64,000 nucleotides of DNA from Polycladomyces zharkentensis (GTDB lineage: Bacteria; Bacillota; Bacilli; Thermoactinomycetales; JIR-001): positions 19,053 to 83,052 of the forward strand of contig NZ_JAFHAP010000007.1 of assembly GCF_016938855.1 (NCBI RefSeq), written 5' to 3'. A program made the position numbers and the translations under genes. This document shows, in pieces, positions 4,003-63,750 of this stretch (position 1 is its first letter; each line of letters begins with the position of its first letter). A model generated the notes under the pieces. It searched no databases. It was not told where the DNA came from and saw nothing but the letters and a program-made list of their open reading frames with translations.

Positions 4003-4028
4003 TCTGAACACCTCCGGCCCTTCCGGGC

Positions 4029-4054
4029 AAAAAATAAAACGGTAAAGCTACCGT
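4029..4054 (-). terminator. Terminator between the Y-RNA locus and rsr
   Basis: Read on the minus strand, ACGGTA pairs with TACCGT across a 4-nt loop and is followed by TTTATTTTTT. It would end the small-RNA transcript about 27 bases before the rsr start codon, with partial read-through possibly feeding rsr. Confidence 0.7.
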
Positions 4055-4114: not shown

Positions 4115-4126
4115 TTTCTTTTTGTT

Positions 4127-4254
4127 GGACGGGGCGGGATTCGAACCCGCGTTCCCCAGATTGAACGATAACCCTCCATCCTTCGACCCTTTCGGATAAG
4201 TGATCGGACAAGGGATATACTGATCTGGTGTCTTACCAACTCGACCACCCGTCC
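4127..4254 (-). ncRNA. yrlA: YrlA-type bacterial Y RNA with a complete tRNA-like body
   Basis: On the minus strand a 128-nt element folds like a tRNA. It has a 7-bp acceptor (GGACGGG 4254-4248 with CCCGTCC 4133-4127), a 2-nt linker, a D-arm with GG in the loop (4245-4230), and a 6-bp stem CCAGAT/ATCTGG (4228-4223 and 4161-4156) in the anticodon-stem position. A 5-nt variable loop GGAAC and a perfect T-arm with loop TTCGAAT (4150-4134) follow. The anticodon loop is replaced by a 61-nt insert (4222-4162) containing GGGTCGAA and GGGTTATC. This matches the known tRNA-mimic plan of bacterial Y RNAs encoded beside rsr. A tRNA finder may report it as a tRNA pseudogene or intron-bearing tRNA; there is no encoded CCA (the 3' end reads AACA). 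Confidence 0.87.
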
Positions 4255-4362
4255 ATGGATGGAGAAGGACTCGTGTTGAAGGATCATCACAAAATGAGAT
4301 ACGGAAGTCTGGTTCATCCGTGCAATATTTCGAGGAAATGTACAAAGAGGGCAAGGAGTGAC

Positions 4363-4549
4363 CAAGGGATCAATCCGGTGGGATTCGAACCCACGTGACG
4401 AGTAATCTCGCCTTTGCCCACAAATAACGGTAACCCTTGATCTTCGGCCCTCAATGTTTCAAAAGGACGAGTGATGAACGAAGGGACCGGGAACGCTCCA
4501 AAAATTTTTCGGAGTCAAGGATAACCCTCTCATCTTATTTTCGACCCTT
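4363..4549 (-). ncRNA. Second Y-RNA-like noncoding RNA with a T-arm and variable-arm-like hairpin
   Basis: The minus-strand transcript predicted to start near 4549 carries a perfect T-arm (stem GTGGG/CCCAC, loop TTCGAAT, 4394-4378), preceded by a 6-bp hairpin with loop ATTA (4412-4397) that resembles a class II variable arm. No D-arm is recognisable. Two copies of the motif seen in the neighbouring RNA are present: GGGTCGAA/GGGTTATC at 4547-4520, closed by CAAGG/CCTTG, and GGGCCGAA/GGGTTACC at 4450-4429. The 5' end CAAGGG can pair with CCCTTG at 4368-4363, giving a closed body of about 187 nt. The true 3' end and whether this is one RNA or two are unknown. Confidence 0.72.
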
Positions 4550-4555
4550 GTTTTT

Positions 4556-4584
4556 AGTGTAAAGAAATGTTTTTGTGATGTCAA
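4556..4584 (-). promoter_or_regulatory. Sigma-A promoter of the Y-RNA locus
   Basis: On the minus strand the -35 TTGACA (4584-4579) and -10 TACACT (4561-4556) are separated by exactly 17 bases. The predicted start is near 4549, right where the first GGGTCGAA motif begins, so the RNA would start without a leader. Confidence 0.85.
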
Positions 4585-39744: not shown

Positions 39745-40058
39745 AAACAGCCGACCTTCAACCTAAGGTCGTGAAAAGGGTTCCATCCGGGAAAATGATC
39801 AAAAGCGATGAACGGGAGAGTACCGCGATTCCGGTTCGCTCCAGAGAGGGACGCCGAGGCTGGAAGCGTCCTGCGAACGGTGCGCGGGAAATGCCCCCGT
39901 GAGCTGTCGCCCGAAACCCGATTGAAGGGAAGTAGGCGCGACCGGCTTTCCACCGTTAACGGACGAGAGGGGGATGGGTCCCGGCCGGGATTCGTCCAAG
40001 CAGAGTGGAACCGCGGAAATCAACCGTCTCTGCAGCGCAGGCTGCGGGGACTTTTTTA
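39745..40058 (+). promoter_or_regulatory. T-box riboswitch, probably tRNA-Cys responsive
   Basis: A leader of about 310 nt upstream of cysE-cysS. The invariant T-box AGAGTGGAACCGCGG is at 40002-40016, followed by a terminator (GTCTCTGCAGC with GCTGCGGGGAC, then TTTTTT) at 40026-40058. The AGTA element is at 39829-39832, and the likely specifier is TGC (Cys) at 39872-39874 in CCTGCGAACGG. Uncharged tRNA-Cys would promote antitermination. Confidence 0.9.
40026..40058 (+). terminator. T-box terminator
   Basis: GTCTCTGCAGC pairs with GCTGCGGGGAC around a 4-nt loop, then TTTTTTATT. It lies 17 bases before the cysE start. Confidence 0.9.
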
Positions 40059-48154: not shown

Positions 48155-48300
48155 TTGGTTGCTTGACAATTGAACACCCGCTTCTACCGTAGACAGCAGG
48201 TGCCGCCGGCTTAATATCCTGCCGAGGTAGGGATTCCGATTCGTATTGTATAGAGGATTTTCCCGGCCTTCGTGTGTCTGCGAAGGCTTTTTTGTTTGCA
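48155..48300 (+). promoter_or_regulatory. L10 leader RNA (rplJL operon)
   Basis: The 5' UTR contains the L10 leader core ACCGTAGACAGCAGGTGCCG with TAATATCCTGCCGAGGTAGG, and ends with a terminator (GCCTTCG with CGAAGGC, then TTTTTT, at 48266-48293). It matches the known autoregulatory L10(L12)4-binding leader in Bacillales. Confidence 0.85.
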
Positions 48301-48322
48301 ATCCCTGCGAGGAGGTGTGACG

Positions 48323-62805: not shown

Positions 62806-63750
<945 letters not shown>

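Follow-up and report, generated by a model that had tools for sequence, protein, structure and literature searches.

Bacterial Y RNAs that carry a tRNA-like domain and lie beside rsr, the gene of the Ro60 orthologue Rsr, are already known. In the ordinary order of YrlA (Rfam RF02553; Salmonella effector domain, PDB 6CU1), the Y 5' strand is followed by the T arm, an acceptor closed by a loop, the D arm and the Y 3' strand, and the Y stem joins the two ends of the RNA. A passage of one study describes the crystal structure 6CU1 as superposing on tRNA with a circular permutation (PMC11472068), and a passage of another reports that YrlA is a substrate of DusA and TruB and that its tRNA-like domain binds PNPase (PMC8394870). 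The Deinococcus Y RNA (RF01053) is also of ordinary order, and its Rfam consensus has a GGNCGAAG...GGUUAC motif in the 5' strand and a T arm, while an acceptor and a D arm were not seen in that consensus.

The 64,000-nt stretch of DNA analysed here (the window) carries on its minus strand, in this order, a promoter-like site, a probable simple Y RNA, a Y RNA of the Deinococcus type, a Y RNA whose parts follow the order of a tRNA, a terminator-like site and rsr (Table 1). The encoded protein matches the solved structures of Ro60 and of Deinococcus Rsr (E 7.2e-76 with Rsr, PDB 2nvo). Its gene starts with GTG at 4011, which leaves a gap of 114 nt, with the terminator-like site inside it, after the tRNA-order Y RNA and bears out the position upstream of rsr given in the first-pass annotation. 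Between this RNA and the terminator-like site there is also a 13-bp inverted repeat, CGGCTCAAGGGAA/TTCCCTTGAGCCG, at 4114-4078 (-), with no T run. The probable Y RNA at 4552-4460 has its Y 5' strand at about 4550-4525 and folds weakly (z -0.97), and in the Y RNA at 4341-4455 the parts come as 5' strand, hairpin, T arm and 3' strand.

Table 1. Features of the Y RNA-rsr locus, in window coordinates.
Feature	Position	Strand	Evidence or remark
Promoter-like site, TTGACA-17-TACACT	4556..4584	-	10/12 matches, consensus match only; immediately precedes first Y RNA
Probable further Y RNA without tRNA-like part	4460..4552	-	Motif GGGTCGAA...GGGTTATCC, by eye
Ordinary-order Y RNA, Deinococcus-type	4341..4455	-	Deinococcus_Y_RNA 30.5 bits, below gathering score of 80; fold z -3.29
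tRNA-order Y RNA	4126..4254	-	Rfam tRNA 55.0 bits; R1 74 bits; covariation in its class
Acceptor of tRNA-order Y RNA	4254-4248 with 4133-4127	-	
D arm of tRNA-order Y RNA	4245-4230	-	
Anticodon-position stem of tRNA-order Y RNA	4228-4223 with 4161-4156	-	
61-nt Y module	4162..4222	-	Sequence; R2 61.6 bits, not independent, as R2 was built with this hairpin included; covariation
Y 3' strand of Y module	4214-4194	-	GAAA loop next
Y 5' strand of Y module, with GGGUCGAA and GGGUUAUC	4189-4166	-	
Variable loop of tRNA-order Y RNA	4155-4151	-	
T arm of tRNA-order Y RNA	4150-4134	-	
Discriminator A of tRNA-order Y RNA	4126	-	
Terminator-like hairpin and T-rich tail, between Y RNA and rsr	4039..4054	-	1 found, 0.9 expected by chance
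rsr, Ro60 orthologue, TROVE and Ro60 vWA domain, 534 aa	2407..4011	-	Pfam PF25045 128.9 bits, PF05731 62 bits

The element at 4254-4126 has the frame of a tRNA. A 7-bp acceptor (GGACGGG/CCCGUCC) is followed by U8 and G9, by a D stem of three Watson-Crick pairs (10-12 with 23-25) with G.A at 13:22 and GG18-19 present, and, after A26, by the anticodon-position stem CCAGAU/AUCUGG, which counts 6 bp if 32:38 is included. The strands of this stem are separated by 61 nt and there is no 7-nt anticodon loop. The variable loop is the 5-nt GGAAC, the T stem has 5 bp (GCGGG/CCCGC) with the loop UUCGAAU, and A73 is followed by ACA. CCA is therefore not encoded here and could be added post-transcriptionally; it is encoded by all 41 distinct tRNA genes that ARAGORN reports in the examined stretches of the window's genome. 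Every joint of a tRNA that the first-pass annotation had listed (acceptor, linkers, D arm, stem, variable loop, T arm) was found, as were the 61-nt insert in the anticodon loop and the missing CCA.

In the covariance search proposed by that annotation, the Rfam tRNA model matches the element at 55.0 bits (gathering score 29, E 4.3e-9 in 64 kb), making it one of 52 Rfam tRNA matches in the genome, and the Rfam YrlA model does not match 4126-4254 with E allowed up to 10. ARAGORN makes no call at 4254-4126. Fold energy alone is insufficient to reveal the cloverleaf, since the element has a z of only -1.26 and its minimum-energy fold (-47.7 kcal/mol) is not the cloverleaf with Y hairpin (-44.1 kcal/mol). 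A recent origin of the body by copying of a single cellular tRNA was also considered and has little in its favour: among the 41 distinct tRNAs compared, tRNA-Val(TAC) comes closest, with 71% identity over the body.

The insert is a 61-nt hairpin, CCCUUGUCC...AUCC-GAAA-GGGU-CGAA-GGAUGGAGGG-UUAUCG, whose second strand carries GGGUCGAA...GGGUUAUC, a motif that serves as 5' strand in the neighbouring Y RNAs. The motif recurs at the start of the adjacent ordinary Y RNAs as GGGCCGAAGAUCAAGGGUUACC at about 4450 and as GGGUCGAA...GGGUUAUCC at about 4549. The bulge motif GGNCGAA...GGUUAYC is present on one strand of the Y stem, which we take to be the Ro60 site. The stretch linking the anticodon stem to the Y hairpin is variable among Thermoactinomycetales relatives. 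Since its Y stem lies inside the chain as a hairpin and does not bring together the two ends of the molecule, the element is a variant of YrlA and not a standard YrlA.

The two RNAs share the Y stem, the D, T and acceptor arms, the same spatial connections and the position next to rsr. They differ in that the Y stem of YrlA joins the ends and its acceptor is closed by a loop, whereas the window element has an open acceptor and a GAAA loop that closes the Y stem. The tRNA-order Y RNA and YrlA are circular permutations of one fold. The first-pass annotation had described a clean insertion of a Y module into a standard tRNA; the frame and the module stand, and the arrangement is better termed a circular permutation of the YrlA fold, of which the window holds one of many examples. 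With the Deinococcus Y RNA the element shares the 5'-strand motif and the T arm, and with tRNA (RF00005) the acceptor, D arm, anticodon-position stem, variable loop and T arm in the same order; unlike tRNA, it lacks the anticodon loop and CCA and holds the Y hairpin. Among the titles and abstracts listed from the open-licence literature, and among Rfam families, we found no description of the tRNA order, of a hairpin placed in the anticodon arm or of the link to one Rsr clade, and we lean towards regarding the variant as previously unreported.

Elements of this kind form a large multi-copy family in cyanobacteria and a few Gram-positive relatives, close relatives of Rsr occurring in Thermoactinomycetales and cyanobacteria. 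Of 227 Y motifs that a script located, spread over 72 of 84 loci, 170 lie within a tRNA frame (acceptors were accepted at 6 or more of 7 pairs, and the pairing counts of this finder are selected accordingly); the other 57 were left unclassified, and 158 distinct better-scoring elements were taken further. We built a covariance model, R1, with 33 cyanobacterial sequences taken from 25 loci and none from the window or Thermoactinomycetales; its alignment (A1) holds 33 of 34 kept sequences, L029:2345-2457 being left out for its truncated Y hairpin. The score of the window element with R1 is 74 bits (E 4.2e-13 in a search of 84 sources) and R1 reaches at least 54 bits in 77 of the 84 sources, or in 52 of 59 when the 25 contributing loci are set aside. 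The sources below 54 bits are L006, L007, L048, L055, L060, L081 and L088, and in L007, L081 and L088 rsr is only partial.

The best plain tRNA among the R1 matches listed from 398 Bacilli genomes (8 candidates scored per genome) has 53.2 bits. Because plain tRNAs reach about 47-53 bits, R1 is of little use for counting in these genomes, and we used a model of the Y hairpin in tRNA order, R2, whose 30-row alignment (A3) includes the window hairpin and consists of 29 kept hairpins minus L029:2345-2457, plus one each from L009 and L005. R2 also matches two tandem ordinary Y RNAs, in the window at 4490-4429 with 33.1 bits. In the scans of more than 40 genomes (398 Bacilli, 292 cyanobacteria, 42 of the order), some of the candidates were scored and the filters were stricter.

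Chlorogloeopsis fritschii PCC 6912 (L017) has an R1 match of 133.8 bits, and on plasmid pAQ7 of Picosynechococcus PCC 7002 (L175 2535-2938, with matches at 2535-2659, 2683-2790 and 2815-2938) three R1 matches of 90.7, 54.2 and 47.5 bits lie directly upstream of the TROVE gene; their Y hairpins, taken in that order of score, have 47.7 bits (clear), 18.5 bits (weak) and 11.5 bits (unrecognised). In L006, whose Rsr is 59% identical, the scores are low (R1 17.4 bits; R2 11.5 bits, E 0.62); a tRNA-order element was nevertheless recognised by eye and by folding upstream of rsr on the minus strand. Its tetraloop is replaced by a very long hairpin, and GCCA is encoded at its end. One match, L126 (G371; R1 51.6 bits, 115 nt), was set aside, as it looks in the alignment like a tRNA with an internal duplication. 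ARAGORN reports no element in 21 loci, and the Rfam models miss tRNA-order elements or label them tRNA, which suggests that these RNAs probably often go unannotated. Two further forms were observed. Downstream of rsr in many cyanobacterial loci (L011 4174-4282 and similar) there is a shorter element made up of acceptor, Y hairpin, one additional hairpin and T arm, in which a D arm was not seen and which is followed by a T run; and the tRNA-order elements L075 1559-1696 and L009 2251-2384 seem by eye to have a long variable arm like that of class II tRNAs.

The distribution of the family follows one type of Rsr. Among 292 cyanobacterial genomes, 27 have rsr, and the 23 in which Rsr is 67-75% identical are exactly the 23 with R2 matches, some of which contributed sequences to R2; R2 found none in the four cyanobacterial rsr genomes at 32-36% identity. 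Only one of 69 cyanobacterial R2 matches lies far from rsr (G554 contig 3, 861367, 51.7 bits); a weak tRNA match was seen at this hairpin (L182 822-990). In Thermoactinomycetales, R2 matches 4 of 42 genomes, all with full-length rsr; a fifth genome with full-length rsr (G011, the source of L006) is missed by R2, and G040 has an rsr fragment only. In 10 whole rsr genomes, every R1 match longer than 90 nt among the matches listed sits at the rsr locus.

Eight divergent rsr loci (L178-L181, L185-L188) give no R2 match with E allowed up to 1. L187 and L188 have weak matches to ordinary YrlA (39.9 and 39.8 bits, gathering score 69), L186 has on inspection an ordinary-order YrlA with a closed acceptor and its own anticodon loop (R1 25.9 bits), and in L185 and the four divergent cyanobacterial loci no Y RNA was found by the Rfam and R1 searches. 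The Rsr clade that goes with tRNA-order RNAs has a support of 93/97 in a tree of 28 hand-picked sequences with 8 open inner branches and long branches that meet; in the drawing, where the midpoint root serves for display only, the Thermoactinomycetales branch below the cyanobacterial set.

Across the family, the Y hairpin interrupts the anticodon arm in two ways. In 103 of the 158 elements (class A) it breaks into the anticodon stem on the 5' side, in most cases following nt 28, with a 7-nt loop coming next. Most cyanobacterial members keep such a loop. The loops have U33 in 102 of 103 cases, although U33 was not a selection criterion, and display 19 anticodon triplets, such as AGG, GCC, UCC, CAU and GUU. 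Pairs 27-28 with 42-43 are formed in 103/103 elements (mean of shuffles 74.7), and 29-31 are all paired with 39-41 in 84/103 (mean of shuffles 38.8), both counts being favoured by the selection rule. The window element belongs to class B, with the hairpin in the loop; no complete anticodon loop can be defined in it or in the other 14 members of this class, and the class rule leaves 40 of the 158 elements in neither class. At the ends, CCA follows nt 73 in 27 of 158 elements, and G-1:C73, a pair known from tRNA-His, occurs in 115.

We had thought a kept anticodon loop specific to the tRNA order and dropped this idea, since the ordinary-order YrlA of L186 has one. The YrlA-like RNAs of the divergent Bacillota L186 (3180-2960, minus strand), L187 and L188 are of ordinary order and keep an anticodon stem-loop with GUU, located between the Y 5' strand and the T arm, which indicates that such a loop can be retained in the ordinary order too. 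An anticodon stem-loop common to both orders fits the descent of both from a whole tRNA.

The structure is supported by covariation in both classes. In class A (33 sequences), 97.2% of cells are paired and 24 of 34 pairs have changed on both sides, none of 500 shuffles is as high on any of the five measures, and sliding the partners reduces pairing to 41-52%. The alignment of the window's class (A4, 20 rows: the 18-row A2 minus L005, plus L009:1856, L016:2115 and L049:2335, with the ends of the L009 row reset) has 95.0% of cells paired and again 24 of 34 pairs changed on both sides; shuffles do as well in 0/500 cases on four measures and in 9/500 on further pair types, and sliding gives 37-51%. 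Related sequences beat shuffles too easily and the shuffle counts overstate significance, and for this reason more weight is given to the sliding control and to the helix count than to 0/500. The Y hairpin alone has 9 of 12 pairs changed on both sides, and the anticodon-position stem of the window's class 5 of 5, which together with the motif of the neighbouring Y RNAs in the hairpin supports the first-pass reading of a Y RNA with a tRNA body beside rsr.

A possible origin of the permutation can be seen in Gordonia phage Cashline, where two tandem YrlA genes precede the Ro gene. The fold of the first (z -3.01) comprises a Y stem and a T arm, then an 8-bp acceptor with GCGA as its closing loop, and a D arm. 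The second has by eye an acceptor closed by UUCG, and its minimum-energy fold keeps the acceptor and the D arm and differs in the T arm. An R1 match of 42.8 bits runs across the boundary of the two genes. The probable source of the tRNA order is a tandem duplication of a YrlA unit, given that this order already spans the boundary of two adjacent YrlA genes. This suggests a route from YrlA to a permuted tRNA, or the reverse.

The Cashline match also raises the question of whether tRNA-order elements are themselves tandem ordinary YrlA genes read across their boundary, which we regard as highly improbable for the window element. Such readings do occur: besides Cashline, there is a weak case in the window (R1 at 4370-4517, 23.2 bits), the Rfam YrlA model spans two neighbouring PCC 7002 elements (L175 2608-2738, 31.0 bits, gathering score 69), and in 16 of 98 neighbour pairs the 3' acceptor half pairs 7/7 with the 5' half of the next element. 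However, a second acceptor half was not seen outside 4126-4254. Acceptors pair within elements at 7/7 in 160 of 165 cases (selected at 6 or more), compared with a mean of 5.2/7 with the next element (n=98); the gaps between elements range from 7 to 1865 nt (median 64) and are not a tetraloop; and TTTT occurs within 20 nt after nt 73 in 114 of 165 elements as opposed to 15% of background 20-mers. There is similarly very little chance, in our judgement, that the locus is an ordinary tRNA gene from which the 61-nt insert is excised as an intron and the halves are joined to a working tRNA, a case that the first-pass annotation had named as counting against its own reading. The insert, as in bacterial tRNA introns, sits in the anticodon arm, the Rfam tRNA model matches the element, and in class A removal of the hairpin leaves a full anticodon stem (5/5 pairs in 84 of 103 elements and 4/5 in 19, as favoured by the rule) and a 7-nt loop, nearly always with U33. 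Yet no intron family was matched in the window region (Rfam, E up to 10), the insert has the Y motif, covaries as a Y stem and goes with one rsr type in the genomes searched, the 15 class B elements without a definable complete loop include that of the window, and 51 other tRNA matches already exist in this genome. Splicing that depends on RtcB is rejected, as no RtcB match was found there. That a dead tRNA copy lies beside rsr by chance is hardly credible: the two other genomes examined from the genus lack the element, as a chance copy might lead one to expect, but the same two also lack rsr, and compensatory changes are found in every helix of both alignments.

A further alternative accepts the same anatomy and assigns it another use, the tRNA part serving as a decoy or sensor for enzymes that cut or charge tRNAs and not as a nuclease tether; we consider this unlikely, if less so than the readings above. 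It would account for the 19 anticodon triplets, the near-constant U33 of the cyanobacterial members and the frequent G-1:C73. To our knowledge no target nuclease is known for such a decoy, which counts against it, as does the window element itself, which has neither anticodon loop nor CCA. A passage by authors working on Salmonella suggests that YrlA could inhibit an anticodon nuclease (PMC7790460). The transcript data point to translation or RNA stress: passages report a strong rise of TROVE gene transcripts with erythromycin in C. fritschii PCC 9212 (PMC6424891) and a joint rise of TROVE and RtcB transcripts in a coculture of this strain with Synechocystis PCC 6803, where the passage does not specify the strain concerned (PMC11423583). 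RtcB is absent from 3 of 18 genomes searched, including that of the window, which also counts against this use.

We consider the best explanation as a whole (probability about 0.8) to be that 4126-4254 is a tRNA-order Y RNA in which the internal hairpin is the predicted Ro60/Rsr-binding stem and the acceptor, D and T arms form the effector domain. Under this tRNA-order reading, the promoter-like site at 4584-4556 would drive transcription of this RNA together with the other Y RNAs. Rsr would bind the Y hairpin and be gated by it, as the motif and the known Y RNAs suggest. RNase P and RNase Z may form the ends by cutting as for a tRNA, since the ends are those of a tRNA; an RNase Z gene is present in the window's genome (355.2 bits). 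The tRNA-like part might, by analogy with YrlA, recruit an effector such as PNPase or tRNA enzymes.

More tentatively, and with some doubt on our part, these elements can be joined in one picture. The Rsr RNPs of cyanobacteria and Thermoactinomycetales would use linear tRNA-order Y RNAs that mature as tRNAs; the cyanobacterial sets with varied anticodon loops would be a panel of tRNA mimics shown to anticodon nucleases and to modification or charging enzymes in translation stress; and the linear form and YrlA would be two natural circular permutations, derived from a whole tRNA and interconverted by tandem duplication.

The family links Y RNAs to tRNAs as variants in gene order, and, as a rearrangement found in nature, it tests what is essential in a Y RNA: the order and the ends change, and the Y stem and the tRNA-like fold stay. 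Should these RNAs turn out to be matured like tRNAs, there would be a direct connection between the Ro60 particle and RNase P, RNase Z and tRNA modification. Picosynechococcus PCC 7002 is a tractable host in which tRNA-order Y RNAs can be studied.

Elsewhere in the window, on the plus strand, three leaders match Rfam models above their gathering scores: a T-box leader at 39799-40034, an L10 leader at 48169-48302 and an S10-Clostridia leader at 63329-63426.
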